Position numbers and translations under genes: made by a program
The notes under the pieces: generated by a model
The model's input: only the letters and a program-made list of their open reading frames with translations
Database searches by the model: none
What the model was told of the DNA's origin: nothing
DNA from: Sporolactobacillus sp. THM19-2
Lineage (GTDB): Bacteria > Bacillota > Bacilli > Bacillales > Sporolactobacillaceae
Reading direction: 5' to 3'
Assembly (NCBI RefSeq): GCF_004153195.1
Contig: NZ_SEMC01000010.1
Location: forward strand, 1 to 64,000
DNA: 64,000 nucleotides
Shown: positions 16,260-51,854 of the stretch, piece after piece
Layout of the letters: each line of letters starts with the position of its first letter
Numbering within the stretch: the stretch's first letter is position 1

Positions 16260-16468
16260 TTAAGTGAAACTTTATTTCCCGGTAGTTTTCGGGCGCACAG
16301 GACGTGTCCGTGCAAGTGTTGCGACAGGGCGCCCCCGTTTATAGCCTGCGCCCATCCCCTGCGGATTGTTCGTTTGAACCCGGCGGGCTTCTGCGGGCAG
16401 TGATCACCCACCCCGTCCTGTTCATTTACTCTCATGACCTGGAGGTTGGGGGTACTGCCCGTTCATAA
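16260..16468 (+). repeat. Dispersed intergenic repeat, copy 1
   Basis: About 209 bp in the sufT-msmX gap. It shares ordered blocks with copies at 31561-31770, 35611-35715 and (inverted) 51676-51854: AAGTGAAAC at the left end, then GCGCACAGGA, CGTGCA, TTGCGACAGG, AGCCTG, CGCCCATCCCC, GAACCC, CTTCTGCGGGCA, TGTTCAT, CTCATGACC and CCCGTTCATA at the right end. No ORF is conserved between copies. It fills most of the 469-bp gene-free stretch 16119-16587; the remainder holds the sufT and msmX control regions. Confidence 0.8.
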
Positions 16469-16534
16469 ATGTAAGCGGATTCGTCATTGTGCACAAAAGA
16501 GGGATACATTAATTAAGCATCCTGACATACAATG

Positions 16535-16550
16535 ATGAAAGCGTTTGCAT
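16535..16550 (+). promoter_or_regulatory. cre site upstream of msmX
   Basis: ATGAAAGCGTTTGCAT fits the cre consensus WTGNAANCGNWNNCW fully. It lies about 40 bp before the msmX start, next to a TATGAT (16551-16556) that may be the -10. CcpA binding here would repress msmX when glucose is present. Confidence 0.7.
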
Positions 16551-16587
16551 TATGATAGACGTATCAAAGATAAGGAGTGAAAAGATC

Positions 16588-17694
16588 ATGGCGGAACTCT
16601 CACTAAAACATATGTACAAAATTTATGATAATAGCACCACCCCTTCTGTTTCAGACTTCAACCTGGATATTGCCGATAAAGAATTTATTGTATTCGTCGG
16701 CCCTTCCGGGTGCGGAAAGTCTACTACACTGCGTATGATCGCCGGCCTTGAGGAAATTTCAAAAGGTGAACTGTACATCAATGGTAAGAAAATGAACGAT
16801 GTCGCTCCAAAGGATCGGGACATTGCGATGGTTTTTCAGAACTATGCCCTGTATCCGCATATGAGCGTCTTCGACAATATGGCATTTGGCCTGAAGCTGC
16901 GCAAGGTACCGAAGGCTGAGATTAAACAGCGTGTGGAACATGCTGCTGAGATCCTCGGCATTAAAGAATATCTTGACCGAAAACCGAAAGCACTGTCAGG
17001 CGGCCAGAGGCAGCGTGTGGCACTGGGCCGGGCGATTGTCCGCGACGCCAAAGTCTTCCTGATGGACGAACCGCTGTCCAACCTGGATGCAAAACTGCGT
17101 GTGCAGATGCGTTCGGAAATCAGCAAACTGCATCAGAATCTTGAAGCCACGATGATTTACGTCACGCACGACCAGACAGAAGCCATGACCATGGCGACAC
17201 GGATTGTTATTATGAAAGACGGTGTGATCCAGCAGGTGGGGTCACCAAAAGATGTCTACGATACGCCGGCCAACCTCTTTGTCGGTGGATTCATCGGTTC
17301 ACCGCCTATGAACTTCTTCCATGGAACACTTGAGGGCAACCATTTTAAAGGCGATGATATCGACATCGAAATTCCAGAGGGCAAGCTTAAAATCCTCCGC
17401 AACAAGAACTTTCTGGATAAACCGATCATCATGGGGATCCGTCCGGAAGACATTCATGATGAACCTGTCGTCATCAATTCCAGCCCGAAAAGCGTGATAC
17501 AGGCCAAGATCAACATCCCCGAACTGACGGGGGCGGAATTTATGCTGCATGCTCAAGTCGGCACCCACAATTTCATTGCCCGTGTCGACGCCCGGACACC
17601 TTATCATGCAGGCGACAATGTGACTCTGGCTCTCAATGTCAGTAAAACCCATTTCTTTGATCCGGAGACGGAAAAATCACTGACTGCCGGCTGA
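16588..17694 (+). CDS. msmX: Sugar ABC transporter ATPase MsmX
   Basis: ATPase that powers carbohydrate ABC importers lacking their own ATPase, 368 aa. Walker A GPSGCGKST (~39), signature LSGGQRQRVALGRA, Walker B VFLMDEPLSNLD and switch YVTHDQTEAM are complete. The C-terminal regulatory domain (GIRPEDIHDEP...) is of the CUT1/MalK type. ATG at 16588 follows AAGGAGTG; the ORF is open 12 codons further. The minus-strand mdxEFG operon nearby has no ATPase gene, so MsmX is the probable partner. A cre site precedes it. Confidence 0.93.
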   Translation: MAELSLKHMYKIYDNSTTPSVSDFNLDIADKEFIVFVGPSGCGKSTTLRMIAGLEEISKGELYINGKKMNDVAPKDRDIAMVFQNYALYPHMSVFDNMAFGLKLRKVPKAEIKQRVEHAAEILGIKEYLDRKPKALSGGQRQRVALGRAIVRDAKVFLMDEPLSNLDAKLRVQMRSEISKLHQNLEATMIYVTHDQTEAMTMATRIVIMKDGVIQQVGSPKDVYDTPANLFVGGFIGSPPMNFFHGTLEGNHFKGDDIDIEIPEGKLKILRNKNFLDKPIIMGIRPEDIHDEPVVINSSPKSVIQAKINIPELTGAEFMLHAQVGTHNFIARVDARTPYHAGDNVTLALNVSKTHFFDPETEKSLTAG

Positions 17695-17711
17695 TTTTAC
17701 GACAGAAAAGG

Positions 17712-17755
17712 CCCCGCGGGCGCTGCCGGACAGGCGGCGTTCCCAGGGTTTTTTT
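17712..17755 (+). terminator. msmX terminator
   Basis: A GC-rich imperfect stem (17712-17748) around a GGACA loop is followed by seven T (17749-17755). Confidence 0.75.
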
Positions 17756-17830
17756 CTGAAAAATTTTACCCCTCCTTAACGTATAGCACAAGGGTGAATC
17801 ATACCGGCAAATGCCGGGCTGATCACGGCA

Positions 17831-18703
17831 TCAAAGAATGGAGAGATAAGCAAGGGTCAGCCCGTTCATCTCTTTCAGGGAGATGCCGGTCATTTCATAA
17901 AATTTCTCGATCCGGTATTGCAGCGTATTCCGATGCATGAACAGGTGCTTCGCCGCGGTGCTGATATTCCCCTGGCTCTCCCACAGCGACCTGATCATTC
18001 TGACGCAGACAGGATCATCGGTGATCATCGTCCGTACTTCAGCTAAAATCGCCCATTCGCTGATCAGCGGCTTCAGCAGGGAGAAAAAGCTGCATGCGAC
18101 ACTCGTCACCTCTTTCGGGGATGAAGCAGACAGGAATCTCCGAAATAAATCGCCTTCTTCCTGAAAAGCGCCTTTCAGCAATCCGGTTGCCGGATACCTG
18201 AGCCCGATCTGAAAGTAGGTTTTGACCGAGAAATCATTTTCCAGTGTATTGGCAATGGCACGAAGGTCCTCTGCCGGGACTGAAGGCTTCTCTTCAATGA
18301 TCAGGCCCTGCGTCGATGAGAGGTATATGAAACTGTCTGATCTGTCAAAAAAAGCTTCCAGGGCCTGCCTCCATTCCGCCAGGTCATCCTGCGGCAGTCT
18401 GGCACTCATCTGAAAACGCGTCACCCGCACGCTTATGGACAGATCAAGATCTTTTACCGGCAACCCGCGGACCAGCAAATCGTACCACAGCCGGCCCTTA
18501 CCGCTGTATACCGGCGGAACTTCCTGATTCAGCAGCATAACCAGCAGGTTTCGTTCACGGTCAGAGAGCGTCTGGGAAGGAATGCCAATATAGTACGGAT
18601 CCTCATAAAAATAGAGCATATTCTTTTTGGGGACAAAGGGAGTCTTTTCCACTATGGTTCCCGGATAATTCCGGGCGAGACGGTTGATATTCATGATGGG
18701 CAC
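17831..18703 (-). CDS. PucR/CdaR-type helix-turn-helix regulator
   Basis: A 290-aa probable transcription factor. The C-terminal ~55 residues form the PucR_C helix-turn-helix: GNISTAAKHLFMHRNTLQYR followed by IEKFYEMTGISL. The N-terminal part has no domain I recognise. Such proteins often sense small metabolites and regulate nearby genes. It lies after pgmB on the same strand but beyond a hairpin, so it is probably a separate unit. A role in sugar control is inference from location. Confidence 0.7.
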   Translation of the reverse strand: MPIMNINRLARNYPGTIVEKTPFVPKKNMLYFYEDPYYIGIPSQTLSDRERNLLVMLLNQEVPPVYSGKGRLWYDLLVRGLPVKDLDLSISVRVTRFQMSARLPQDDLAEWRQALEAFFDRSDSFIYLSSTQGLIIEEKPSVPAEDLRAIANTLENDFSVKTYFQIGLRYPATGLLKGAFQEEGDLFRRFLSASSPKEVTSVACSFFSLLKPLISEWAILAEVRTMITDDPVCVRMIRSLWESQGNISTAAKHLFMHRNTLQYRIEKFYEMTGISLKEMNGLTLAYLSIL

Positions 18704-18833
18704 CTCCTCCGTGTCACAATTCCATTAACTCTTTTATTATAGCCTGAAAAAAGCGCCGCTTCATTTATTTTCCAGATCGGGCAGTCGGCACACCTGATTC
18801 CTTTTTACTGATCCCGTAACCAGTCCATCCACT

Positions 18834-18864
18834 GGAAAAGCAGCCTGCACGCGGCTGCTTTTCC
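18834..18864 (-). terminator. Hairpin after pgmB
   Basis: A 12-bp perfect stem (18834-18845 with 18853-18864). It ends the mdx operon on the minus strand, although the U tract is short. Confidence 0.65.
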
Positions 18865-18871
18865 ATGTCCG

Positions 18872-19534
18872 TTATTTATCCTTTCGGGTAAAATGCTGTT
18901 TCAGACGTTCAAGTGTCAGTTCCGCCGTCGATGCCACACGCCAGTCGGCAGCAGCAGCGGCAGGTGTCGCGATGCCAACGGAAAACATACCCGCTGCGTT
19001 GATGGCCTGAATGCCGGCAACTGCGTCCTCAATCCCGGCACATTCGGCAGGGCGCATTTTTAACTGTGCAGCCGCTGCAGCGAAAATCTCCGGATCCGGC
19101 TTTCCTTTTTTTAATTTTGCCGGATCAACGATTGCATCAAAAAATGAGGTGATCTGCAGACTGTCGAGGATAAACGGACCATTTCTGCTTGCTGAGGCCA
19201 GGCCGATTTTTATCCCCGCCTCTTTCAAATCCCTTAAAAACTGACCGATGCCGGGAAGCAGATCAGCCGGTGTCATGCCGGAAATCAGTCCCCGGTACGC
19301 CTCGTTCTTTCTGGCGGCGAGTTCGTCCTTCTCTAATGCGGAAAAATCATCTGACCGGCCGCCGAATTGCAGGATAAGCTCTAAGGATTCCATCCGGCTG
19401 ATGCCCAACAGGTGTTGATTAAACGTCTCGTCAATTTCGATGCCAATCGATCGGGACAGATTTTTCCAGGCTTCAAAGTGATACTTTGCCGTATCGGTAA
19501 TCACACCGTCCAGATCAAAGATGACTGCCTTCAC
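18872..19534 (-). CDS. pgmB: Beta-phosphoglucomutase
   Basis: HAD-superfamily enzyme converting beta-glucose-1-phosphate to glucose-6-phosphate; 220 aa. Motif [12 protein letters not shown] has the nucleophile and acid/base Asp; motif II is LASASRNG; Lys in [12 protein letters not shown]; motif IV in [11 protein letters not shown]. Start is GTG at 19534, overlapping the malP stop in GTGA and preceded by a GGAGG site. It handles the product of maltose phosphorylase. Counterpart of B. subtilis pgcM (yvdM). Confidence 0.92.
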
Positions 19535-21834
19535 GTTTTGCCCGCCTCCCTCTTTGTGCACAGTTTCCCGGTGTATGCGTGCTTAAGCAGGATCGCCCGT
19601 CCATAGAGTTTCAGCTGAAGGGGTTCGCCTGAAAGCAGATCCAGATGCAGGGCCTGCTTTTCGATCCTGACTTGAATCAGCCGTCCACGGTAATTTACTT
19701 TAAACGAGTAAGCCTGCCACTCGTCCGGTAAATGAGGTGCAAAGGAAAGTGTTTCCTGAAACGTACGCATCCCGGCAAAACCCTGAACGATGGCGAGCCA
19801 GCTGCCTGTCATGGAGGTAATATGCAGCCCGTCGTCTGTGTCGTTATTATAATTGTCAAGGTCGAGCCGCGCCGTCCGCTGATACAAAGCCAGTGCCTTT
19901 TCTTTCTTTCCCAGCTCCGATGCGAGGATGGCATGCACACAGGCCGACAGGCTGGATTCGTGCACCGTCAGCGGCTCATAAAATTCGAAATTCCGTTTCT
20001 TCTCTTCATCACTGAATTGATCATTGAGGAAATAAATACCCTGCAGAACATCCGCCTGCTTAATGAAACAGGAACGCAGGATTTTATCCCATGACCAGTG
20101 CTGATTGATCGGCCGCTCATCCCGGGGAATTTCTGTTGCCGGTCTGATTTCCTTATCCAGGAAGGTATCATGCTGGACAAAGATACCCAATTTCTCATCG
20201 AAGGGATAATACATCCGGTCAATGATGTCCTGCCAGTGATCCGTTTCTTTCTGTGACAGTCCGAGCGCCTGATATTTTCCGGTACTGACCAGATCCAGTA
20301 CGCTGAGTGTGTACCCTAAAGTCCAGGCGGCCATTTTGTTCGTATACCAGTTGTTATTGACATTGTTTTCATATTCATTCGGACCGGTCACTCCGTGAAT
20401 CATGTACTTGCCCCGGCGTCTTGAAAAATGGACCCGGTCCGCCCAGAACCGGCAGATACCGGTCAGGACATCAATCCCGTACTGATCAATATAGGATTTA
20501 TCACCTGAATAATTGACATAATTATAAATTGCATAAGCGATCGCTGCATTGCGGTGGATCTCCTCAAATGTGATTTCCCACTCATTATGACATTCAACTC
20601 CTGTGAAGGTGACCATCGGATACAATGCGCCCTTCAGTCCCTGCTGCCGCGCGTTATGATATGCACCATCAAGCTGATGATAGCGGTACAAAAGCAGTTG
20701 CCGGGTCACAGCCGGACCCGCAGTGGAAAGATAAAACGGTACCGCGTAAGCCTCCGTGTCCCAATACGTTGCCCCGCCGTATTTCTCACCGGTAAAACCT
20801 TTCGGGCCAATATTCAGGCGCGCATCATCGCCATAGTAAGTGGAAAAAAGCTGAAACAGATTGAAGCGGATGCCCTGCTGCGCTTCATCGTCGCCGTCAA
20901 TCGTAATATCCGACTTTTCCCACCGCCTGTGCCAGGCCGCGGCGTGTTCTTTTTTCAGTTCTGAAAATCCGCTGTCTGCCGCCTGGCCGAGCAGTTCCCT
21001 GGATTTTGGCAGTAATTTCGGGACATCATCATCCCTGCTTGTCGTGACCGCCACAAATTTGTCAAGAGTCAGCGAACGCCCCGCTTCCAGATCGGCAGCA
21101 AAGGATTGTGCGACATATAAGGGCCTCTGATTCTCTGAAACATCTGCCTGAAAATCAGTCCGGACGGCCATCGAAGCAGCTACAGTAAAGACCGGTGTGC
21201 CAAACGGATTATCGATGGTCCGAACAGCCAGGCTGGAGCATCCCGGCTCTGACGACCTGCCTGTCTCAAGCCAGAACATCTCCTCATCGTTTGCATCCTC
21301 ATTTCGCACGTCTCCGTCAAGGTAAGGGACGAGCCGGACGGAAACCGGACCGGATAACCCTGTCACGCGAAAGCGTACCGCGCAGATCTCTTTATTGACA
21401 ATACTGAGAAATCGTTCGGCCTCAATCCGCGTTTTTTTCCCTTTTTTCACGATGACATAGGAATGCTTCAAAGTGCCCGACCGCATATCCAGTTCAAGTT
21501 GAAAATGCTCAACCGGATCCTTGTAAAGATCCACCTCTTCCTCATCGAGGAAAAGATGCAAACCGATCAGATTCATGCTATTGATCACTTTGCCGAAATA
21601 TTCGGGATACCCGTTCTTCCACCAGCCGACACGGGTTTTGTCCGGATACCAGATCCCCGCGAAATACGTGCCCTGATGATGATCGCCGGAGTACGTCTCT
21701 TCAAAATTGCCGCGCATCCCCATATAACCATTCCCAAGCGAGGTCAGGCTTTCCTCCAGACGCATCTGTTCCTTATGCAGGCGATGGGTCGTCAATTTCC
21801 ATCCATTAATATCAAATAATCGTGATCGCGTCAT
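19531..21834 (-). CDS. mdxK: Maltose phosphorylase (GH65)
   Basis: Glycoside hydrolase family 65 enzyme, 767 aa, which splits maltose with phosphate into glucose and beta-glucose-1-phosphate. The N-terminal beta-sandwich is followed by the alpha/alpha barrel. The catalytic acid Glu is in [19 protein letters not shown] (~490), and the phosphate-binding Ser/Gly segment is [13 protein letters not shown]. It lies 7 bp after the DUF1189 gene and overlaps pgmB by 4 nt. Other GH65 members act on trehalose or kojibiose; the operon context favours maltose. Confidence 0.92.
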
Positions 21835-21841
21835 GTTACAT

Positions 21842-22714: not shown

Positions 22715-22720
22715 GATACA

Positions 22721-23572: not shown

Positions 23573-24877
23573 TTACATCATCCCCTCTTTACCAAACGCA
23601 TTCGTCTTCTTGAAGGCGATGAGTGAGATTGCGATAACGATTATCGAAATGACAATCGTCACGGCTGAGGCGAGTGCGAACTGCGGCGCTGTCCCGGTCG
23701 TCAGTTTGTAAATCCACGAGATCAGGATATCCGTCGTACCGGCACCGCCGCCGACATCTCCGGGTCCTCCCATATTGAACAGGTAGATGATCGCAAAATT
23801 GTTAAAATTAAACGTATACTGGGTGATCAGAACCGGTGCCGTCGCAAATAAAATCATCGGCAGCGTAATCTGATTAAACTTTTGCAGAAAATTGGCGCCA
23901 TCAATCTTTGCTGCCTCATAGAGTTCATCGGGAATCGCCTGAAGGACACCGGTGACCATCACATAAATATAGGGGAAGCCGAGCCAGGTCTGAATCATAA
24001 TCAGCGCCGTTTTTGTCCAGAACGGATCGGTTTTCCAGGAAATCGCCGGGATATCCACAAAGGGAAGTATGTTTATTAAGTGGATCACCTGGACATTGAT
24101 CGCTCCAATACTGTCATTAAACATGTTGGAGAAACTCATAATCGTGATGAATGCGGGCACTGCCCAGGGAAGCAGGAAGATAACCCGGAAAAGCTTTTTC
24201 CCGATAATAAAATTCTGATTGGCGACAACTGCTGTCAATATGCCGAGTATAATCTGGCATGTTGTGGCAATAAGCGCCCAGATGATCGTCCACCCTAGCA
24301 CCGTAACAAAGGTCGATCGATAGGAACTGAGAAACATAATATTGGCAAAGTTGGTGAACCCGGTCCAGTCAATTAATCTGGCCGGCGGAATATGATAAAA
24401 ATCATAATTCGTGAAGGCCATTAAAAGCGTGACCAGGACAGGAAAGATGATAATGAAGGTCATCACAAAATAGGCTGGAACTGTTAATAAATAGGGAAAG
24501 CCGTTCGCCCAGACATTTTTGAGTATGGATCGGGCAGACGTGTTGGCCATCCCCAGTACATTCCATTGTCTGGCTACTTTTCTTGCATCGAGAAAATTCA
24601 ATATCCAGAATAATACAAACAGGCATACGATGATGAGCTGCAGTGTCCCTCTGACCATCAGGAAAAGGGAATGATCCTGAATCGGTACGGTTCCCAGTGT
24701 GATGAGATTCGTCAGGGCATGACCGCCAATACTGGCCATTTCAATAACAAACAAGAGCGTAAGGAAAAGAAAAAGGATTCCTTTGAAAGGCTGTTTATTA
24801 TAGAATTGCCCGAGACCGGGGATTATGGATAGCATCCCGGCCCTGCGGACATTTTTTTTATTTATTCCTGTCATCAT
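23573..24877 (-). CDS. mdxF: Maltodextrin ABC transporter permease MdxF
   Basis: CUT1-family permease, 434 aa. As in other MdxF/MalF proteins it has an N-terminal extension with two extra helices (~30-50 and 75-95; segment PGLGQFYNKQPFKGILFL) before the permease core. The EAA loop is YEAAKIDGANFLQKFNQITLPM (~320-340). Start is one of two adjacent ATGs after GAGAGGG. It follows mdxE by 25 bp. Confidence 0.93.
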   Translation of the reverse strand: MMTGINKKNVRRAGMLSIIPGLGQFYNKQPFKGILFLFLTLLFVIEMASIGGHALTNLITLGTVPIQDHSLFLMVRGTLQLIIVCLFVLFWILNFLDARKVARQWNVLGMANTSARSILKNVWANGFPYLLTVPAYFVMTFIIIFPVLVTLLMAFTNYDFYHIPPARLIDWTGFTNFANIMFLSSYRSTFVTVLGWTIIWALIATTCQIILGILTAVVANQNFIIGKKLFRVIFLLPWAVPAFITIMSFSNMFNDSIGAINVQVIHLINILPFVDIPAISWKTDPFWTKTALIMIQTWLGFPYIYVMVTGVLQAIPDELYEAAKIDGANFLQKFNQITLPMILFATAPVLITQYTFNFNNFAIIYLFNMGGPGDVGGGAGTTDILISWIYKLTTGTAPQFALASAVTIVISIIVIAISLIAFKKTNAFGKEGMM

Positions 24878-24902
24878 GCTACCCTCTCACTGTTTCAGAG
24901 TT

Positions 24903-26153
24903 TTATTGATTGTATTTTTGCTTGATATTCGTCTGAATCATCTTCACCGCATCATCAAGTGCCTTTTTCGGTGCTTTTTTCCCTGAAGCAATATTAAACA
25001 TCGTCGATTCCATACCTGGCCAGACTTCCGCCATTTCCGGGATACTTGGCATTGGAACAGAAGACTGATATTGTTTAATCACTGCATTGGCTAATTCATT
25101 TGAACCCTGGCTGACCTTTTCCTGAGTCTTGACATTAGCCGGAATTTCGTTGGTCGCTTCAAAGAACTTATAAGAATTTTTTTCATTTGTGACATATGTG
25201 AGCCACTTCTGAGCAAGTTCAGGCTGCTTTGTGTAAGCAGAAGCGATCCATCCCTTTCCTCCGGCAAACGGGGCATACGGTTTACCATTCGGCAGTGTCG
25301 GGATCAGGGAAACGCCATAATTGACCTTAGCGTTTTTTAAGGCGACAGCCTGCCAGGGTCCATCGATAATGGCAGCCGTTTTTCCATCCTGGAACTGTTT
25401 CAGCACGAAATCTCCGGAACTTTTAACGTCTCTCATGCCTTTGGGCCAGATATCCTGGAACCAGTGAGCGGCATATTTTCCTGCTTCAACAGCGCCGTCA
25501 TTATTCAGGCCGATGTCTTCCCGGTCAGTCCCGTTATCTCCAAAGACGTAAGCACCATATCCTGACAGAAGACCGTAGCTAAAGAAGAAATCCGTCCATT
25601 TGGTCAGAAATGCAGTTGATTTTCCGGATTCCGACTTAAAGGCGTATTTTGGATCTTTCGTCAGACTTTCCAGTTCTTCAAAGGTTTTGGGGGCTTTTGA
25701 CAGGAGATCTTTGTTATAAAACATCACCAGTGTTTCATTAACAAAGGGAACGCCGTAAATTTTTCCGCCGATATTCATCATTTCTTTATTCTTCTGATCA
25801 AAGGGATCCAGGATGCCCTTGTCGAGTTCCAGCAAATGACCCTGCTGACCGAGTCCGCCGATCCGATCATACGGTCCGATCATGACATCGGGGCCATTAC
25901 CTGAGGGACCATCCAGCGGCAATGCTTCCAGCTGATCGAACATCGGTTTTTTTACCAGTTTGACTTTGACGTTATTCGCTTTTTCAAATTTCGGAATAAT
26001 ATCCTTTGCAAATTTTTCATAAGTCGGATCAATCGAAACGGTCAGCGTCTTTTTCCCATTGGATTCGCCTGAACCACCGGATCCGCATGCCGCCAGCGTA
26101 AATATCAGGCCAAAAATGACAAGCATTGAAATGACTTTTTTTATATGTTTCAT
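24903..26153 (-). CDS. mdxE: Maltodextrin-binding lipoprotein MdxE
   Basis: Extracellular solute-binding protein (SBP_bac_1), 416 aa. Lipoprotein signal with lipobox LAAC and a GSGGSGES linker. The body has the MalE-like segments GPDVMIGPYDRIGGLGQQG, KTAAIIDGPWQ and YAPFAGGKGW. It delivers maltose or maltodextrins to MdxFG. ATG at 26153 lies 9 nt after GGGAGGG; a TTG codon just upstream is possible. Its upstream region holds a cre site and a LacI-type operator. Confidence 0.92.
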   Translation of the reverse strand: MKHIKKVISMLVIFGLIFTLAACGSGGSGESNGKKTLTVSIDPTYEKFAKDIIPKFEKANNVKVKLVKKPMFDQLEALPLDGPSGNGPDVMIGPYDRIGGLGQQGHLLELDKGILDPFDQKNKEMMNIGGKIYGVPFVNETLVMFYNKDLLSKAPKTFEELESLTKDPKYAFKSESGKSTAFLTKWTDFFFSYGLLSGYGAYVFGDNGTDREDIGLNNDGAVEAGKYAAHWFQDIWPKGMRDVKSSGDFVLKQFQDGKTAAIIDGPWQAVALKNAKVNYGVSLIPTLPNGKPYAPFAGGKGWIASAYTKQPELAQKWLTYVTNEKNSYKFFEATNEIPANVKTQEKVSQGSNELANAVIKQYQSSVPMPSIPEMAEVWPGMESTMFNIASGKKAPKKALDDAVKMIQTNIKQKYNQ

Positions 26154-26200
26154 CAACTTTTCCCTCCCTTTTTTCTTACAGTTTTATTATATGAATAAAT

Positions 26201-26214
26201 AGTAAGCGCTTTCA
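26201..26214. promoter_or_regulatory. cre site upstream of mdxE
   Basis: AGTAAGCGCTTTCA matches 13 of 14 positions of TGWAARCGYTWNCW. It lies ~50 bp before mdxE, in the 100-bp gap after the amylase gene. Confidence 0.65.
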
Positions 26215-26227
26215 ATTTGTTTTTTCA

Positions 26228-26241
26228 TGTTACCGATAACT
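26228..26241. promoter_or_regulatory. LacI-type operator upstream of mdxE
   Basis: TGTTACCGATAACT: GTTA and TAAC arms around CCGA. It resembles the palindrome at 28384-28401 before the amylase gene. It is probably bound by the MdxR-like repressor encoded upstream (inference). Confidence 0.5.
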
Positions 26242-26253
26242 GTTTTCCATTTC

Positions 26254-28050
26254 TTAAACAGGGGTTGCAAGGACAAGAAAGTGCTGTGCTTTTGTCTTAA
26301 CTGACCTGACAGTGGATGTTTCTCCTGTCCAGATATTCTGAAGAAGTAAAGGTTCCTCGCTGATATTCATTTTTTGTGCCGTTTTACCGTGGTTAAAGAC
26401 AAAAATGAGCGCTTTCCCATCAAGTTCCTTCTTAAAAGAGAGCATTTTCTTCTGATCATCAAGAGTGAGCCATGTCAGTCTCCCGTAAGTCAGGATTTGA
26501 TGATACGCTTTTTTTAATTTAATCAGTTTTTTCGTAAACGCCAGCATCTCCCGATCCTGCGCGTCCTTATCCCAAATCATGCATTTACGGCAGAGTGGAT
26601 CGGCTGCACCGTCCATGCCGATTTCGGTGCCATAATAAATGCAGGGCGAGCCGGCTTGGGTAAACAGGAAAGCAAGCGCCTGTTTGACTTTCTGCCTGTC
26701 CCCTCTGGCTTTTGTCAGAATCCGGGCGGTGTCATGGCTGTCGAGCAGGTTAAAGGCGACTTCATTAGCCGGCTGCATATATTTCATAAAATGCGCATTA
26801 ATGGTGCTGACGGCCTGCGATGCCGTGATTTTGTCTTCGACGAAGAAATCAATGATCGACTGGGTGAGTGGATAGTTCATCACGCTGTGAAATTCGTCGC
26901 CCTGCAGCCAGTTCCAGGCGTCATGCCAGATCTCCCCGACAATGTAAATGTCACTTTTTGCATCTGTTACAGCCTTATGGAATTTTTTCCAGAATGCATG
27001 GTCCACCTCATCCGCCACGTCCAGACGCCAGCCATCAATATCAAACTCCCGAATCCAGTAAGTGGCGATATCGAGCAGATAGTCCTGCACCTCAGGATTT
27101 GCCGTATTGAGTTTCGGCATTTTCGGGGTAAAGGCGAACGTATCAAAGGACAGAGTTGTTTTTCCTTCGAAATTTCCGTTCTGTCCCTCTTTGACCGGGA
27201 ACGAGCGGATATGGAACCAGTCCCTATAACGCGACTTCTCTTCATTTTTAACGACATCCTGCCACTGCTTTGATCTGCTGCCGATATGGTTGAAAACCGC
27301 GTCGAGCATGATCCGGATACCCCTTTTGTGGGCTTCCTGTACCAGTTTGCGGAAGATCTCCCTGTTTCCGAAATGCGGGTCAATCGAAAAATAGTCCGTC
27401 GTGTCATATTTGTGATTTGTCGGCGCCTCAAAAATGGGATTCAGGTAAAGACCGCCGATGCCCAGATCCTGCAGATAATCGAGGTGATCGATGATTCCCT
27501 GAAGATCGCCGCCGAAAAAATCTTTGCGACCGGGATCCTTGCTTCCCCATGGCAAGGCATTTTCCGGGGATATCGATGGATCTCCATCTGCAAAACGTTC
27601 CGGGAAGATCTGATACCAGACGGTCGATTTAACCCATTCCGGGGCTTTAAATCGATCTGCTTCATGGATAAAAGGAAATTTGAAAAAGTTATCCGCTGCC
27701 GTAAACGTTTGCTTTTCTGCCGGCAAAAAACCTCTGTCTCCGTAAAAGGCCGTTTCACCCTCAGACGAAGTGAGGACAAAACCATACTGAAGGCGATGAA
27801 AGGGCGGCTGAACCGTGGCCAGCCAGTAGTCATGCAAATCTGTTTTGGCGATTTTCTCCATTTTTTTCTGACTGCTGAGCCATTCCCACACGCCCTTTTC
27901 TTTTTCTTCCGAGCGGAACGGGTCTCCGTAAATCAATGAAACGGACTGGATATCCTCTTTTTTTGTCCTGATCCTGATATGCAGCGTATCGTTATCATAA
28001 GGATAAGCATAAGCGCTGCAAGGCTGGTGATAAACGGCTGATTTTTCCAT
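26254..28050 (-). CDS. Neopullulanase/maltogenic amylase (GH13 with CBM34)
   Basis: A 598-aa intracellular glycosidase without signal peptide. An N-terminal CBM34-like domain (~1-125) precedes a GH13_20-type barrel (~135-500). Catalytic residues: nucleophile Asp in DGWRLDVADEVDH, acid Glu in IVGEIWHDAWNW and transition-state Asp in LLDSHDTARI; region I is DAVFNHIG. It trims maltodextrins or cyclodextrins to maltose for the phosphorylase. Counterpart of B. subtilis yvdF/bbmA, in the same operon position. Confidence 0.92.
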   Translation of the reverse strand: MEKSAVYHQPCSAYAYPYDNDTLHIRIRTKKEDIQSVSLIYGDPFRSEEKEKGVWEWLSSQKKMEKIAKTDLHDYWLATVQPPFHRLQYGFVLTSSEGETAFYGDRGFLPAEKQTFTAADNFFKFPFIHEADRFKAPEWVKSTVWYQIFPERFADGDPSISPENALPWGSKDPGRKDFFGGDLQGIIDHLDYLQDLGIGGLYLNPIFEAPTNHKYDTTDYFSIDPHFGNREIFRKLVQEAHKRGIRIMLDAVFNHIGSRSKQWQDVVKNEEKSRYRDWFHIRSFPVKEGQNGNFEGKTTLSFDTFAFTPKMPKLNTANPEVQDYLLDIATYWIREFDIDGWRLDVADEVDHAFWKKFHKAVTDAKSDIYIVGEIWHDAWNWLQGDEFHSVMNYPLTQSIIDFFVEDKITASQAVSTINAHFMKYMQPANEVAFNLLDSHDTARILTKARGDRQKVKQALAFLFTQAGSPCIYYGTEIGMDGAADPLCRKCMIWDKDAQDREMLAFTKKLIKLKKAYHQILTYGRLTWLTLDDQKKMLSFKKELDGKALIFVFNHGKTAQKMNISEEPLLLQNIWTGETSTVRSVKTKAQHFLVLATPV

Positions 28051-28340
28051 TTTCTATCCCTCCTGTTCATTGTTTTTTAACAAAACGCCGCATTCATATA
28101 GTGCGAATACATCAATGTTGCCAGCATCCCGGCACGTTCAGTGCGACACGTGACGTCTTGAAGATCGGGTTCAGACGCAGGACGTTAACCCCAGGGCACC
28201 GCATATGTCACTCGGTTTTTCCATAATCCCTCTGATGCCCCCCAATCCCGTCCCCCGTTTGTCTCTTTAAGTCCCTTGGATAAATCTGATTAACAACAGC
28301 CTGACGCCGCCAGAGACGCTGCACATTACGCCTTTCACTT
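28051..28340 (-). other. Long leader of the amylase gene
   Basis: If transcription starts at the promoter 28344-28372, the amylase mRNA has a leader of nearly 290 nt. No small ORF with a good ribosome site stands out. Short complementary blocks exist (CACGT 28133-28137 with ACGTG 28148-28152). Parts of 28131-28203 weakly recall the dispersed repeat family when read on the plus strand. Confidence 0.35.
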
Positions 28341-28343
28341 GTT

Positions 28344-28372
28344 AAAATAGCATGCGTTTTCACAGATAACAA
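28344..28372 (-). promoter_or_regulatory. Amylase/mdx promoter with overlapping cre
   Basis: On the minus strand TTGTTA (28367-28372), 17-bp spacer and TATTTT (28344-28349). A cre-like site (28349-28362, 13 of 14 consensus positions) overlaps the spacer and -10, a position typical of CcpA repression. Confidence 0.6.
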
Positions 28373-31552: not shown

Positions 31553-31560
31553 GAGAGGTA

Positions 31561-31770
31561 TAAAGTAAAATTTCAATCAGCCAGCAGGGGGGTCATGCGC
31601 ACAGGATGTGCTCGTGCAGGCGTTGCGACAGGAATCCTTCGTTTTCGTTTTAAGCCTGAGCGCATCCCCCACTGATTGTCAGTTGAACCCATCGTGCTTC
31701 TGCGGGCAATCATCCCCCACCCGGGTCTGTTCATCTACCCTCATGACCCAGGTAGCACTACCCGTTCATA
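31561..31770 (+). repeat. Dispersed intergenic repeat, copy 2
   Basis: About 210 bp, nearly the same length as copy 1. Shared blocks include TTCAATCAGCC, GCGCACAGGA, CGTGCAGGCGTTGCGACAGG, GCATCCCCCACTGATTGT, GTTGAACCCATCG, CTTCTGCGGGCA, CTGTTCATCTACCCTCATGA and CCCGTTCATA. It ends 31 bp before the ATG of the lysozyme-like gene, in the same orientation. It makes up half of the gene-free stretch 31393-31801. Confidence 0.82.
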
Positions 31771-31801
31771 CGGGATAAAAATACATGCAGGATTAAATAA
31801 T

Positions 31802-35418: not shown

Positions 35419-35610
35419 CCTCTTTGCATCATCTTTTGTTCCACGTTACCATATTCTGGCGTAAAGCTTCAACTGTTGCACATCAGAGGGCTCACTTGTC
35501 TTCTGAAACGCCTTTTTCATTGCTTAACATGCCCATCGTACCAATATGCCAGCCAAAGTTGGCTTTTCAAACTTGAACTTTCACTGATAATTCTTGAATT
35601 CAGGCCGATC

Positions 35611-35715
35611 ATGTGAAACTTCAATCCGTGGGGAGCTTCATCTCCCAAGGATTGTCCGTTGAACCCATGGGCTCCTGCGGGATAAATGCCCCGCGTGGCG
35701 CAGGGTTTAAGGTAT
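35611..35715 (+). repeat. Dispersed intergenic repeat, copy 3 (internally deleted)
   Basis: About 105 bp. The left end GTGAAACTTCAATC and the right-hand block GATTGTCCGTTGAACCCAT, GGGCTCCTGCGGG match the other copies, but the middle ~70-80 bp (GCGCACAGG to GCCCATCCCCC) is missing. It lies between swrC and the YitT-family gene. The rest of 35419-35764 has the swrC terminator and a short AGCCAA/TTGGCT hairpin. Confidence 0.7.
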
Positions 35716-46700: not shown

Positions 46701-47496
46701 CGCGCTCAAGCCCGTTCAGGTCCAGAGAAAGAGTCTCTTCATAGACAGCCGGTCCGCCCGGTTCCCCGCAAATTTCACGCGCTTCAGAAAGCGCCGCAAC
46801 AAATCCTTTTATTCTTCGAAACAGGGATTCTTTCAGATCCTTAATCCATGAGAAATCATCAATCGAAGCCTCCTGATCCGGATGGTAAGCGCGCACCATC
46901 TGATTCAGCCAGTCATCCGGCCAGGGATTGCTTCGGGCAAAATGATACAGGCGAAAGACCAGATTAAGCAGTGCATCGTCACTCCTGTCACCGGAATAAC
47001 GGTCGACAAGTCTGAAAAACTCAGGATCTCCGGAGGCATAGTTTTCTTCAAGTACCTGTTCCAAGACTTCTTCTTTGAGCAGTTCCGCTTCTGTTTCGTC
47101 GAGGAGACGAAATCCGGGATCAAGGTCAAGAAAATAGTAATATTTTTTAATAATGGACATGCAGAAGGCGTGAAGGGTCATAATGGGTGCTTTACTGAGC
47201 AGCGCCTGCTGCCTGCGGAGAAACAGATTTTCCGGATGCGCCGAAAGTTCTTTCTCCAGTGCCTGTCCGATGCGTTCTCTCATCTCCGAAGCTGCAGCCT
47301 TTGTGAACGTGACGACCAGCAGTTCATCAATATTGACCGGATGCCCGGGATCCATGATCCTGCGGATAATGCGTTCAACCAGGACCGCCGTCTTTCCGGA
47401 TCCGGCTGCCGCGGCAACCAGAATATCGTGCCCTTTTTCCGTTATCGCGCGCCATTGCTCATCGGTCCATCTTGTTCCCTCAGGCTTTGGGGTCAT
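43753..47496 (-). CDS. addA: ATP-dependent helicase/nuclease subunit A (AddA)
   Basis: A 1,247-aa UvrD-type helicase plus RecB-type nuclease of AddAB, which resects double-strand breaks for RecA. Helicase motifs: Walker A AAAGSGKTAVLVERI (~33), motif II LIDEYQDTNR, and motif VI in ILYVALTRAREKLIL. The C-terminal nuclease has the conserved DYKTDR in GLILLDYKTDRLTG (~1180). Overlaps: 17 nt with addB upstream and 4 nt with sbcD downstream. Confidence 0.96.
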   Translation of the reverse strand: MTPKPEGTRWTDEQWRAITEKGHDILVAAAAGSGKTAVLVERIIRRIMDPGHPVNIDELLVVTFTKAAASEMRERIGQALEKELSAHPENLFLRRQQALLSKAPIMTLHAFCMSIIKKYYYFLDLDPGFRLLDETEAELLKEEVLEQVLEENYASGDPEFFRLVDRYSGDRSDDALLNLVFRLYHFARSNPWPDDWLNQMVRAYHPDQEASIDDFSWIKDLKESLFRRIKGFVAALSEAREICGEPGGPAVYEETLSLDLNGLERVLHTQGKSWEEIRSEVLALSFGKMKASRGHDVAATLKDQVKKIRDHVKKEVSDLKDQWFSRSSEEALRDLKDMAPSVEQLGKLVKQFAAAFKKEKRRKGVLDFSDLEHEALTVLRKEGSAPGHEAPSVVATQYRSHFEEVLIDEYQDTNRVQESIIRLITRDGKHGGNLFMVGDVKQSIYGFRLAEPALFIEKYKNFAGSDTDGEKIDLSSNFRSRPEIINGTNFIFRQTMDEAVGDIAYDQAAELKYGADYPEAGRAVDLELIERDAEGERAADNGVEEYENEELEAAAIADRILAMTGNGTGPAFRVCDKKTGQMRPVRFRDIAILMRSASQTATAMKEVLDARGIPAYAELSTGYFDANEVSVMLSVLQVIDNPFQDIPLASVLRSPIVGLDGDALAQIRITDRSGNFFSALKKYVAEAKGSLRDQLNAFLEQLSEWKNMSVSHSVSELIWQIYRDTGFYDYAGGLTGGTQRQANLKAFYDRARQYEKTSFRGLFRFLRFIERLRKNGGDLGEARALSEQEDVVRIMTIHKSKGLEFPVVFVAGINKKFNRRDTLAPALLHKSLGFGTRWIDPDQRISVPTLPYLAIKEQMKKEANAEEMRILYVALTRAREKLILTGAVRNLEKTVQHWAGAIKTRDWLLPEYYRSTASAFLDWLGPCILRHRSAVPLHDLAQVRPDRDFVSRDPSVWHVQLIPSSAVVREQEKPERDQTRMEKVRHFRPVPSASGREDEVSRRLEWVYPWQQAATSMAKQTVTEIKSQQDYFSAGQDNRLLSGRFSVTAGDRPRFLQSGGLSASERGTALHLLMQHLNLAGPLDIRQLRVQGEQLVEKEILTPEQENSLDYQAVSAFFRTSAGRKMQQAEKVSRECPFSLVLPAGEVYPTWRGDPADEAVLIQGVIDCIIETAEGLILLDYKTDRLTGRFPDESEAMKELKRRYHVQLDLYRLAIEKIWHRPVSRIGLYAFDIGKFVDLTGERRIFK

Positions 47497-50400
47497 CGTT
47501 CTCCGTCTCCTTTCCCTTTATTTCTTCCAGTACACGGTCTGCAGAAAGTTGCTTCAGAACCCGGTAATTATTGCCCGGCCGGGACTGATCAAACAGACAT
47601 ACCGGTCTGAACGGGCAATAGGTACACGGGACGCGGCTCTTATCTTTAAAAGGAGCAATGCGGACATCCCCGCCGGTTATTTTCTGACCGACGTCTTTCA
47701 TCACCGCTCTGGTGTATGTTCTTAAGGCATGAAACTGCTCTTTCCCGGCAACGGACGAGCCTTTGTAATAGCCGCCGTTTTTCTTCAGCCCGAAAGGCGC
47801 GATCTGTGACCAGCCGCCCTGAGCATGTGCATCATTCAGGAGCAGAGCAGGTTCATCGGCCAGCAGCAGTCCCTTCATTTTAAACTTTTTATACAGTTCT
47901 TCTTCGATCGCGTCCCCAGGAAGCTTGTGATCGAGGCTGAGTGTCGGATTGTGTATGTGAAAATACAGGACACCCGCCGGTTCTGCCTGGGTACCGATCC
48001 ACTTCTGTGAGTACGTAATCACCACATCAAGATAGGCAAGCATTTGCAGGGCAAGGCCGTAATAAACATCTGACAGATTTAAATCCTTTAATCCTGACTT
48101 GTAGTCAATGATTCTGAGCAGAATCCGGTCTCCGATGGTTGCCTTATCAATCCGATCAATCCGCCCGACAACCTCCATCCGGCAGCCTCCGGGCAGGTCA
48201 AATGTCAGTGCGGGAAGAGGCTTTCCCGGTCCAAACGGGAGTTCGAGGCCGACCGGAACAAACCCGCTTGACTGCGCGTGACGGCGCATGACCCGGGCTG
48301 CCCGGGCAACGACCTGCTCCAGTTTGTGCTGCAGGTAACCGTAGCGGCTGCTGCTTGTCAGAATCTGGTGCTGCAGATTCGGGGCGATCCGCGTCACGGT
48401 TTCAGAAGCCAGTTTATCGCAGTCTCCTTCTGACAGGTCATTCCAGGTCATGTGATGAGACATAATTTCTTCGATCATTTTTCTTACGGCCAGATGGAAC
48501 AGCTGCCCAATATCCGGAGCGTCGAGCTGAAAAACCTCACGCTCCCTGAGGCCCAGTCCGTAGGAGGCAAACTGGGAAAACGGGCAGGCGTTGAAGCGTT
48601 CCATCCTCGATACACTTGCCTGAATCGTCTCTCCGTAGAGTGCCCTGGCCGATGCCGGACTGAGAGAGGCTTCATTTCGCGAAAACAGACCCGAGAGACG
48701 CCTGCGTGCGGTATCTTTCCATTTTACCCGTGACGTATACCAATTATATGTATCCCACCAGATATCGGACATGCCGTATCCCTTTTGCCATTCTCTGATT
48801 TGTGCGGCAAGATAACTTATCGTTTTCCCTGGTGCATTGATAAACTGCATCTGGTTCTCTTCGGAGAGCGCCCGCGGCTCCGATGGCGACAACCTCACTT
48901 TAAGTCCGGGAAAACGACGTTTGATCCTGCCGATCAGGGGAGAAGCCTTCATGGATTCTCCTGCTTCCGAGGCTAATGGATAAGACAGGAACAGCCTTTC
49001 CGTCGGGAGTGACAGGGCCCGGAAACACAGTTCATTTTCACCGGACATCTGTCCGTTATCACCCTCAGCAACATGCAATCCGCGTTCTTCCAGGAGTGTC
49101 CGGTCCTCGTCTGAAAACAGGCCGCGTTCGGAAGGTTTTGCCGGAAGGACGCCCTCATTGACGCCAAGCAGAAAAACGGCTTTGAGTTCAGTTGAGCGCA
49201 TCCGGTCCAGACTGCCTGCCAGTACCTGATCCAGTGCAGGAGGTACGAGGGCGAATTCAAGCTGATCGAGACCGGTATCAATGATTTTCGTAAAAAGATC
49301 GAGCGACAGCGGTTCATCGCCTGCTCCTTCCACACACTGGTCCAGCATGTCGATGACGGCCTTCCAGACCTGCCCGTGTTCTTTTGCTTCTTCAAGCTGC
49401 CCCTTTTTTTCCGCATCTCTTGCCAGCCATTCCAGTTTATCCGGTATCATGAGATTGATCAGAAAATCGTAGATTGCCTTACATTTATCCCGGATATTTT
49501 TGGCTGATTTCAGTTCCTGCTCAAAACCCTGCAGAGGCCCGGCAATCAGAGCACGAAGGTGGTTAATCCGCTTCTGTGCCTCCCGCTCTTCTTTCGACAT
49601 TTTCCCCGGCTCTTCTTTTAGCCCGCGATTCACTCTGTAATCCCACGGCTTCTTTTCCGTCCACTTTTTCCGGCCATATATGCCATAGGCAAGCACATAG
49701 TTTTCAAGTTCATCAATGGCCTCCCGTGCTTCAGAAAGGGGGATACCCGCGGGATGAATCAGGTCCGTTTTGGCACAGCGAAATACCGGCTCATAGCGCC
49801 AGTTCTGCTGCACAACCTCCAGGGCGGACCGGATCAGTTCGATCAGCGGATGATGGCGCATCGATTTCTTTTGATCGATAAAAATCGGAATCCCGTAATC
49901 TCCGAATATCGTTTCTATCAGATCGGCGTATTGATCCAGATTCCGCACAAGAACCGTTATTTCCCGATATCTGATGGTGTGATCGCGTGTCAAAGCAATA
50001 ATATCCCTTGCCGCCTGTTCAATTTCTTCCCTTTTATTAACGGCCTCAGTCAGAACAATACCATCAGTCTGATCACATGTCGCAAGTGGATACCGTCCAA
50101 ATGACAAATTCAGATGCTTCAGGGCTCTTTTCTGCGTACGAACGACCCTGCTTTTAATGATCAGCGGTTCAGATGGAAGCTGCATTTCCTCTGCCCAGGC
50201 ATCCAGCTGAATATAGAGCAGTGCAGGATGTCTGAATGGGGAGAACTCGTCGGGCGGCCTGTCATAGGCTTTATCCGCCCCGATGATAACGGTTGTCCGT
50301 TTTGCAGTCTCCATCAGTTCCTCTGTGACAAGCTGTTCTTCCGGTGTCATGGTCTGGAATCCGTCAACCCATACTTCCGCCTGTTTCAGAAAATCTGTTT

Positions 50401-50989
50401 CCTTCATTTTCCCTGCGGTTAACTGGAGATAATCATCGCTGTCGAGGTACTTTCCTTCAAGTTCTGCTTCAAAAGACTGATAGACCAGTGACAGATCGTG
50501 AAGTTTGTCCCCGAGAAGCCGGTCTCCATCATGCTCCTCATCGACTGCCTTTGCATGAGCGGAAAGACGTTCCGGAGTCAGACAATAACGTTTGAGCTCT
50601 GTCACCGTATCTTTAAGTACATCATAGAAGCCGTTCTGTTCCGATGCTTTGCGGAATAAACGCAGCTCACCCCGGCTTTGCTCAACAATTCTGCGAAGCA
50701 GCATGGCGACACCTGTTCCATTCAGATGGATCCGTGTGATCCCTCCAGACTGCTGGAGGACGCGCAGTGCAAGCCGGGGAATGCTGTAGACATTCAGACG
50801 CGTCATACCGCCTGTGCCGACAGCTCTGGCAAACTGATATTCCATACTGAAGGTCATGTGTTCCGGTACAAGATAAATCAGCGGCGGTCCGGATGGATTT
50901 TCCCGAAGCCGGCTGATGACTTCCTGCATGCAGGCTGTCGTCTTCCCCGTACCCGGGCGTCCCAGTATAAAACGTACCGACATCAGCAT
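47480..50989 (-). CDS. addB: ATP-dependent helicase/nuclease subunit B (AddB)
   Basis: A 1,169-aa partner of AddA with an inactivated helicase fold, a recB-type nuclease and an Fe-S cluster. The N-terminal P-loop is LGRPGTGKTTACMQEV. The Fe-S Cys residues are FNACPFSQFASYG (~800) and CTYCPFRPVC near the C terminus. The nuclease motif is LRIIDYKSGLKDL. It is first in the addB-addA-sbcD-sbcC operon, an order conserved in Bacilli. A LexA-type box lies 60-75 bp upstream. Confidence 0.96.
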   Translation of the reverse strand: MLMSVRFILGRPGTGKTTACMQEVISRLRENPSGPPLIYLVPEHMTFSMEYQFARAVGTGGMTRLNVYSIPRLALRVLQQSGGITRIHLNGTGVAMLLRRIVEQSRGELRLFRKASEQNGFYDVLKDTVTELKRYCLTPERLSAHAKAVDEEHDGDRLLGDKLHDLSLVYQSFEAELEGKYLDSDDYLQLTAGKMKETDFLKQAEVWVDGFQTMTPEEQLVTEELMETAKRTTVIIGADKAYDRPPDEFSPFRHPALLYIQLDAWAEEMQLPSEPLIIKSRVVRTQKRALKHLNLSFGRYPLATCDQTDGIVLTEAVNKREEIEQAARDIIALTRDHTIRYREITVLVRNLDQYADLIETIFGDYGIPIFIDQKKSMRHHPLIELIRSALEVVQQNWRYEPVFRCAKTDLIHPAGIPLSEAREAIDELENYVLAYGIYGRKKWTEKKPWDYRVNRGLKEEPGKMSKEEREAQKRINHLRALIAGPLQGFEQELKSAKNIRDKCKAIYDFLINLMIPDKLEWLARDAEKKGQLEEAKEHGQVWKAVIDMLDQCVEGAGDEPLSLDLFTKIIDTGLDQLEFALVPPALDQVLAGSLDRMRSTELKAVFLLGVNEGVLPAKPSERGLFSDEDRTLLEERGLHVAEGDNGQMSGENELCFRALSLPTERLFLSYPLASEAGESMKASPLIGRIKRRFPGLKVRLSPSEPRALSEENQMQFINAPGKTISYLAAQIREWQKGYGMSDIWWDTYNWYTSRVKWKDTARRRLSGLFSRNEASLSPASARALYGETIQASVSRMERFNACPFSQFASYGLGLREREVFQLDAPDIGQLFHLAVRKMIEEIMSHHMTWNDLSEGDCDKLASETVTRIAPNLQHQILTSSSRYGYLQHKLEQVVARAARVMRRHAQSSGFVPVGLELPFGPGKPLPALTFDLPGGCRMEVVGRIDRIDKATIGDRILLRIIDYKSGLKDLNLSDVYYGLALQMLAYLDVVITYSQKWIGTQAEPAGVLYFHIHNPTLSLDHKLPGDAIEEELYKKFKMKGLLLADEPALLLNDAHAQGGWSQIAPFGLKKNGGYYKGSSVAGKEQFHALRTYTRAVMKDVGQKITGGDVRIAPFKDKSRVPCTYCPFRPVCLFDQSRPGNNYRVLKQLSADRVLEEIKGKETENDDPKA

Positions 50990-51051
50990 TCCCCCTCAAA
51001 AACTTTTATCCGATCACAACCAATCGAACTTTTTCTATTATAACATAAAGA

Positions 51052-51063
51052 GAACGTCTGTTC
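51052..51063. promoter_or_regulatory. LexA (DinR) box upstream of addB
   Basis: A GAAC-N4-GTTC site; the N4 on the minus strand (AGAC) also fits the Bacillus consensus RNRY. It lies about 10 bp upstream of a TATAAT (~51038-51043 on the minus strand), within the likely addB promoter. Confidence 0.6.
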
Positions 51064-51115
51064 CCACCTATATTCTACATTTTACTCTGAAAATCTTCTT
51101 CATATCATTCTGAGT

Positions 51116-51147
51116 ACCATAAAAAAAAGCGGTCAATATGAACCGCC
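51116..51147 (-). terminator. Terminator of the thiamine-binding protein gene
   Basis: GCGGT (51129-51133) pairs with ACCGC (51142-51146). On the minus strand at least eight T follow. Confidence 0.8.
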
Positions 51148-51218
51148 TGAGTTGCCTCATTCATTCTGTAAACAGCTATACAGTTGTGGCCGGCAGCCCT
51201 GCGACAGCCTTCTTTATC

Positions 51219-51512
51219 TCAGGATTTCCGGTACTTTCCAACTTTTTCCTCAATCGATGTACCCTGCGGCCGGAAATGAATTTTTACTTCAGCTGCAACT
51301 TCATCGGCACCTGCCTCAACTGTTGCATAAATTGTTTTTTTCACGACTTCAAGCAGGTCGTCCAGTTCCCCTTCCAGAACCGTCTCCAGGGCGTCAACTT
51401 CATATTTCACCCCTGATTTCTGAATTTCCTCAATCGCTTTGTCGACCAGGCCATATGTCTCTTTTTCTTTTGAAAAAGGAAGAATCTGCAAACCAACATT
51501 ACTTTTCGGCAT
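51219..51512 (-). CDS. MTH1187-family thiamine-binding protein (YqgV-like)
   Basis: A 97-aa cytoplasmic protein of the UPF0045/MTH1187 family, which binds thiamine-type ligands in the members studied. Key segments are VGLQILPFSKEKETYGLVDKAI and GVKYEVDALETVLEGELDDLL, and length is typical. Its role may be vitamin transfer or storage. It follows the ppiB remnant on the same strand and has its own terminator. Confidence 0.85.
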   Translation of the reverse strand: MPKSNVGLQILPFSKEKETYGLVDKAIEEIQKSGVKYEVDALETVLEGELDDLLEVVKKTIYATVEAGADEVAAEVKIHFRPQGTSIEEKVGKYRKS

Positions 51513-51555
51513 GGTACATGCCCCTTTCTTTTTTAGTCTTCCTGATCCCGGACTG

Positions 51556-51675
51556 TCAATTGATCATGATATCACCGTTTTTCATTGCTCGAACCGTATC
51601 CAGTCCCTCTGTGACCTGTCCGAAAACAGGATGAACTCCGTCGAGATGCGGCTGCGGCGTATGGACGATAAAGAA
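51556..51675 (-). pseudogene. ppiB: ppiB (cyclophilin) remnant, C-terminal ~39 codons
   Basis: The minus strand encodes [20 protein letters not shown] and then [19 protein letters not shown] before a stop. This matches the C-terminal part of bacterial cyclophilin-type prolyl isomerases. The first ~100 codons, including the catalytic Arg and Gln region, are absent. The match begins exactly where repeat copy 4 ends (51676). The ORF continues upstream only through repeat DNA. It is therefore a broken gene, lost by insertion plus deletion or by recombination at the repeat. Confidence 0.8.
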
Positions 51676-51854
51676 GTGAAGGACGGGCCGTAAACATGCC
51701 CAGGCGGGGGATACCTGCCCGCAGGAGCCCGATGGGTTCAACAAACAATCATTGGGGGATGGGCCTAGGCTAAAAACGAGGACGTCCTGTTGCAATGCCT
51801 GCACGGGCACGATCTGTGCGCCCGAAAATCCCGGCTGATTGAAGTTTCACTTTA
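51676..51854 (-). repeat. Dispersed intergenic repeat, copy 4 (inverted)
   Basis: About 179 bp on the minus strand. Matches other copies in GTGAAACTTCAATCAGCC, GGGCGCACAG, CCGTGCAGGCATTGC, TTTTTAGCCT, GGCCCATCCCCCAATGATTG, GTTGAACCCATCGGGC and CTCCTGCGGGCA. The right end is shortened (no CTCATGACC block). It lies between the PAP2 gene and the ppiB remnant and abuts the latter. Confidence 0.82.

Follow-up and report, generated by a model that had tools for sequence, protein, structure and literature searches.

The repeat bcr1 was reportedly described in a 2004 abstract with TTTAT flanking each of its ends. Table 3 of PMC2267715 lists lengths of 147 and 167 bp for it, and statements in PMC6542083 put it at 11 to 130 copies per genome and call the Bacillus cereus repeats (BCRs) specific to the B. 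cereus group. Mobile elements of the insertion sequence (IS) family IS200/IS605, as outlined in sections of PMC7290912 and PMC5934647, have no terminal inverted repeats, make no target duplication, carry a hairpin at each end and insert 3' of a tetra- or pentamer, with a guide at the 5' base of each hairpin; for the IS605-type group A IStrons, a passage of PMC4227781 gives insertion after TTGAT, ATTAT or TTTAT. The repetitive extragenic palindromes (REPs) measure 20-40 bp according to an excerpt of PMC3733652. Here we analyse a dispersed repeat element with four copies in a 64,000-nucleotide stretch of Sporolactobacillus sp. THM19-2 (contig NZ_SEMC01000010.1, positions 1 to 64,000; "the window" hereafter). 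By its anatomy this element is probably a relative of bcr1, the nearest published repeat, and we put at roughly one in two the probability that it is a non-autonomous element with IS200/IS605-like ends, moved by a Y1 enzyme acting in trans and inserted at TTTAT.

The short form consists, in order, of ATAAA, GTGAAACTTC, hairpin 1, GTTA, GTTGAACCNATCGGGC, hairpin 2, GTTA, ATGCGGG and ATAAA. Read on the strand beginning with TTTAT, the element itself begins with CCCGC, has a hairpin near each end and closes with TTTAT. Covariation supports the two predicted hairpins: in an alignment of 37 diverse short copies, with 32 pairs counted, 90.5% of the cells pair, the slid controls reaching 32-53%, and 18 pairs have changes on both sides, with 52 such cells versus 17.5 in shuffles. 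Paired cells amount to 92.0% in the main helix of hairpin 1, 94.9% in the main helix of hairpin 2 and 78.9% in the inner helix of hairpin 2. The search pattern behind 32 of the 37 copies spanned the linker and part of hairpin 1, so that conservation in these regions partly results from how the copies were chosen; any fourth letter was allowed in the first GTTA. Single long copies fold no better than shuffles (z −1.31 and +0.80), and only the short-form covariation is convincing as evidence for the fold. Each hairpin is followed by four letters that are mostly GTTC in the window's species and GTTA elsewhere: GTTA follows both hairpins at 144 of 148 classified sites of other genomes (TAAC before both on the TTTAT strand), and GTTC does so at 17 of 21 classified sites of this species (GAAC on the TTTAT strand). 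The same four letters, a candidate guide tetranucleotide, stand at both hairpins in 161 of the 169 classified sites, with a further 27 of 196 sites unclassified.

That the element moves is seen from sites which are empty in relatives. We compared 33 insertion sites in a clade of seven genomes (six labelled Cytobacillus firmus or C. oceanisediminis, one Paenibacillus), 17 of them the usable ones among 18 named loci and 16 picked from about 50 more, including seven chosen for their differing pentamers. Anchored flanks gave an empty counterpart at 24 of the 33 (L426 being doubtful), and an assessment by eye arrived at 24 too, counting L138 and L402 but not L140 and L163. Since many of the sites are empty in two to six relatives, insertion is favoured over precise loss. 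The number of matches at E ≤ 1e-8 in the seven genomes was 86, 13, 20, 16, 30, 30 and 76, and judged from these sequences the family looks recently active in the Cytobacillus clade. A non-autonomous mobile element was one of three possibilities raised in an earlier first-pass annotation of the window, which also proposed looking for empty sites, covarying base pairs and target-site duplications; it is supported by the boundaries, the empty sites and the copy-number swings, and covarying pairs were indeed found for both hairpins.

The boundaries were surveyed at 196 distinct non-tandem sites, after 41 of 237 had been dropped as internal to tandem arrays and L137 had been left out as a truncated array; the same insertion in sister strains may count twice among the 196. 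The pentamer ATAAA (TTTAT on the other strand) stands on both sides at 125 sites, on the left at 162 and on the right at 147. Of the 71 sites with at least one deviating pentamer, only one (L197, ATCAA) has the identical deviation on both sides. Single-base deviations are found on the right only at 34 sites and on the left only at 18, those on the left being mostly at base 1 and those on the right mostly at bases 2 and 5, and, read on the TTTAT strand, the right-hand pentamer is most often TTTAT or ATTAT. In head-to-tail arrays neighbouring units share one ATAAA. One such array, of five units with one ATAAA per joint, lies in Lysinibacillus parviboronicapiens (L168, 4469-5146). The case that the two flanking ATAAA are not a target duplication is strong though not final, as old copies mutate after insertion; the target-site duplications for which a search had been advised are thereby not supported. 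Immediately past the target, 23 of 103 sites have a strong hairpin (below −10 kcal/mol), compared with 12.0% of 1254 intergenic ATAAA (p 0.005), which amounts to a modest, about twofold, preference for the T-rich tails of transcription terminators. Strong terminator targeting, as a comparison of 27% of 192 sites with 4-8% in neighbouring windows had indicated, was discarded, the effect being about twofold once intergenic ATAAA is the control.

We propose that the element, on its TTTAT strand, would be placed directly 3' of a pre-existing TTTAT-like pentamer, with its own terminal TTTAT travelling along. A Y1 (HUH tyrosine) transposase supplied in trans would excise one strand as a circle, and this would be inserted at a single-stranded TTTAT or ATTAT without target duplication, somewhat favouring the T-rich tails of transcription terminators. 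The terminal TTTAT of each copy would then be a new target, giving rise to head-to-tail arrays sharing one pentamer. Because old copies mutate after insertion, the telling sites for this scheme are those with an odd letter shared with empty sites, of which there are five, each with the odd letter on one side only. Three place the target on the right: at L414 the right pentamer is AAAAA and the left ATAAA, with AAAAA in two of three empty sites; at L177 the right pentamer is ATAAT, as in one of four empty sites, two others also lacking A at base 5; and at L408 it is ACAAA, with C as second base in four of five empty sites.

Several observations weigh against the proposed scheme. The other two telling sites place the target on the left, namely L108, where the left ATAGA equals one of five empty sites (the other four having ATTAA or A-TAA), and L138, where the left TTAAA is found in two of five. 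At L176 and L153 the right pentamer deviates and equals no empty site, and at L412 and L396 the left one deviates and the empty sites are mostly ATAAA; these four look like later mutation, uninformative on the side. No decision on the target side is given by L099, L401, L402 and L426, and L100 has ATAAA on both sides, yet none of its three empty sites has ATAAA. Hairpin 2 is long, with a large internal loop that makes it branched, and the joint switch from TAAC to GAAC may be a single inherited double change. Y1 genes are present in 51 of 58 relatives, in all 14 that carry the repeat and likewise in 37 of the 44 that lack it. The single Y1 match in the own genome is an intact gene of ordinary IS200 type. 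The search for an autonomous partner sharing these ends was negative: none of the 45 loci scanned (30 plus 15, the latter including 12 around Y1 genes) has both ends flanking a Y1 gene, the scan covering a minority of the Y1 genes of the surveyed relatives. Finally, comparison of the two strains of the window's species revealed no clean empty site, and the family therefore looks dormant there. We still prefer a fixed target side because the pentamer deviations are asymmetric between the two sides, with confidence reduced by the three-to-two split.

Candidate partners were considered individually. The IS200 of the own genome (L259) was rejected, its ends being unlike the element by eye. No gene resembling the REP-associated tyrosine transposases (RAYTs) exceeds the cut-off in the draft own genome, and RAYT-like genes are present in several repeat-bearing genomes. 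One of these, in G055 (L297), has half an element upstream, but the repeat around it is a different one (GGGACAGGAAC), and its nearness was taken as chance. This RAYT-like gene (287 aa, within 12540-14060 of L297) sits among GGGACAGGAAC repeats that are apparently a REP family of its own.

The principal rival is conservative site-specific recombination between a chromosomal TTTAT and the one TTTAT of a circle, which could leave the target letters on either side. The split of the telling sites and the single pentamer shared within arrays fit this reading, and a phrase in PMC6542083 characterises BCRs as "site-specific recombination-like". We nevertheless consider it rather unlikely, since the two sides differ both in how often the pentamer deviates (34 right only, 18 left only) and in which bases are affected, a core of just 5 bp would be out of the ordinary, and no obvious role would be left for the covarying hairpins and the twin motif. 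Less likely again is a miniature inverted-repeat transposable element (MITE) mobilised by a DDE transposase that duplicates a 5-bp TTTAT target. Such an element would be small and gene-less, with ATAAA at both ends and empty sites having one ATAAA, as seen here, and bcr1 to bcr3 are likened to MITEs in a passage of PMC3446304; against this, the ends as read in the copies form no terminal inverted repeats (left GTGAAAC, right GCGGG), the deviations match at one of the 71 deviating sites, even if later mutation of old copies blurs this count, and all five telling sites have the odd letter of the target on one side only. A functional structured RNA family, kept and copied for its function, would account for the covarying hairpins, and about half of the intergenic bcr copies in B. 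cereus (18 families together) are transcribed, often in untranslated regions, according to part of PMC3446304, but this explanation is very improbable with no Rfam match, sites empty in sister species, copy numbers from 13 to 86 among relatives and none of 13 other species of the genus carrying the repeat. The structured RNA of the first-pass annotation could be retained as a by-product of the mobile element, a conserved fold being equally expected of single-stranded DNA ends; a search of Rfam returned no match at the element, whether with the window at gathering score or with a tandem pair at E ≤ 1.

The four copies in the window are ordinary, partly decayed members of the family, and all are within a few bases of where they had first been noticed. 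Copy 1 (16259-16475, forward strand) is of the long form, with left pentamer ATTAA, a decayed right end (CGTTCATAAATGTAA) and an approximate right boundary. Copy 2 (31560-31779, forward strand) is a complete long form with ATAAA at 31560-31564 and 31775-31779; its start is AAGTAAAAT and not AAGTGAAAC as first given. Hairpin 1 of copy 2 (31575-31678, forward strand) extends from AATCAG at 31575 to CTGATTG ending at 31678 with the long-form insert in its loop, the pairing being that seen in short-form copies, and in its hairpin 2 (31702-31764, forward strand) GCGGGCA at 31702-31708 is predicted to pair with a stretch ending in ACCCG at 31764, again with covariation from the short-form copies. 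Copy 3 (35608-35686, forward strand) is a 79-bp short form without hairpin 2, its internal TGCGGG being joined to the terminal ATAAA; first placed at 35611-35715 with an internal deletion, it has lost the whole of hairpin 2. Copy 4 (51692-51855, reverse strand) is a long form that has lost its right part and starts 8 bases from the last base of the open reading frame (ORF) at 51863-52534; its inversion and approximate place hold, and it has no recognisable right end. Complete copies of the family extend to ATAAA on both sides.

The profile E-values of copies 1 to 4 are 2e-51, 2e-52, 2.1e-12 and 1.2e-46, respectively, and are not independent, as the profile was seeded with these same copies; an independent BLAST with copy 2 found copy 4 at 9.5e-28 and copy 1 at 9.7e-25, and copy 3 was missed in the BLAST of the genome with copy 2. 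All four copies lie outside the surrounding Pfam-supported ORFs, in agreement with the intergenic placement first reported, and the longer mechanical ORFs overlapping copies 1, 2 and 4 have no support. At L022 the own strain has a short product similar to copy 3, where G058, the second genome of the species, retains hairpin 2 and ends in TGCGGG. As the hairpin-2 deletion differs between the two strains, deletions such as that of copy 3 must arise within the species, probably between short direct repeats.

With at least 45 copies in the 3.0-Mb draft of the own genome, the high copy number expected from the window is borne out at a lower density: the genome averages about one copy per 67 kb, and the one per 16 kb inferred earlier reflects a window that is richer (4 in 64 kb). 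BLAST with copy 2 gave 44 matches, two of them on the reverse strand inside other copies, and the profile search of fetched stretches gave 44 distinct copies once duplicate hits of one copy in overlapping loci had been removed, with one more at C50:225071 from a separate listing. The same query had 48 matches in G058. The two strains share nearly all compared sites and differ in array length (L031, L032 and L024) and in deletions; site L188 of G058 is not represented in the draft own genome, and L039 is at a contig end. Copies come in two size forms, a short one of about 155 bp and a long one of about 210 bp whose hairpin-1 loop is larger by some 60 bases. Insert motifs, which were picked by eye, occur in 21 of 44 own copies, most of these being longer than the 140-169 bp classes. 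The C. firmus clade (L137 after 3141; G407, G409 and G413) has a different stretch of about 63 bp after hairpin 1, which is seen again at no fewer than 12 other listed positions, several of them overlapping matches to the element, and is apparently a second, independent long form.

The profile and covariance searches suggested by the first-pass annotation gave many copies with consistent boundaries in the own and related genomes. Of 397 genomes sampled across the order, 139, representing 70 of 136 genera, had covariance-model matches at E ≤ 1e-4, with at most seven candidates scored per genome, rough E-values, and some of the 139 depending on a single weak match. An exact pattern was found in at least 118 stretches of named genomes, the genera among the matches listed being Lysinibacillus, Sporosarcina, Cytobacillus, Neobacillus, Peribacillus, Psychrobacillus, Niallia, Terrilactibacillus and others. 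None of 13 other species of the window's genus had a match at E ≤ 1e-3, and the element part of a 3.5-kb query was unmatched in them, with G058 matching. Because the distribution is patchy, these sequence matches suggest horizontal arrival or repeated loss. Phages gave no BLAST match and viral contigs no exact-pattern match, and plasmids gave a handful of matches, mostly from Bacillaceae and none to the long form. One plasmid match, half an element in CP079755.1 (L258, 221556-221624), is labelled Klebsiella grimontii and may come from a mixed or mislabelled assembly.

The window holds other features as well. The 2,767 bp at 24015-26781 are absent from G058, where the flanks are contiguous, and cover the whole of a solute-binding protein gene (24903-26156, SBP_bac_1) and parts of a permease and an alpha-amylase gene. 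Two tandem SBP_bac_5 genes (5250-8924) are about 80% identical in DNA, and a T-box leader (9658-9916) and a flavin mononucleotide (FMN) riboswitch (60791-60921) were also found.

With regard to known systems, the element resembles REPs and the bacterial interspersed mosaic elements (BIMEs) in being palindromic, intergenic, of high copy number and, under the scheme proposed here, mobilised in trans by a Y1-type enzyme as REPs are presumed to be, but REPs are much shorter, the draft own genome has no RAYT-like gene over the cut-off, and the RAYT of G055 stands amid a different repeat; the BIME/REP-like label offered earlier therefore applies only if it is taken broadly, for any non-autonomous DNA with hairpins. 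The traits of IS200/IS605 are found here in the lack of target duplication and of terminal inverted repeats and in the hairpin near each end. Comparable among them are the elements like PATE (palindrome-associated transposable element) in sections of PMC7290912 and PMC4227781, likewise short and gene-less, with two hairpins, no inverted repeats or duplication, and insertion beside a T-rich pentamer; the element of the window is far more numerous than the single PATE-like sequence in that part of PMC7290912, no autonomous element with matching ends was found for it, and two telling sites misfit a fixed target side.

With bcr1, compared by its printed description in partial sources, the likeness extends to length, intergenic dispersal, stem-loops, TTTAT and tens of copies with strong differences between strains, and of 124 full-length copies in named genomes, 109 belong to the 140-169 bp classes, around the bcr1 length of about 147-167 bp. 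The repeat had been called unrecognised, which is probably wrong given this match in anatomy, although full-text searches, with most subscription papers outside their coverage, returned no paper with its strings and none describing it outside the B. cereus group. It differs from bcr1 in its long form with a loop insert and in its presence in many Bacillales genera; because this distribution exceeds the B. cereus group we name it bcr1-like and do not file it as bcr1. If the two are related, bcr1 can no longer be regarded as specific to the B. cereus group, as printed, and a mechanism open to testing becomes available for it, with no target duplication, a circular intermediate and a trans-acting enzyme. 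More tentatively, bcr1-type repeats might be one branch of order-wide minimal single-strand transposons, whose hairpins and twin TAAC (jointly GAAC in this species) would be recognised by a trans-acting Y1 transposase, and which would tolerate lineage-specific inserts in or beside hairpin 1, apparently in two independent long forms. The main reading offers a candidate explanation for a class of intergenic repeats that is absent from Rfam and present in about half of the order's sampled genera.

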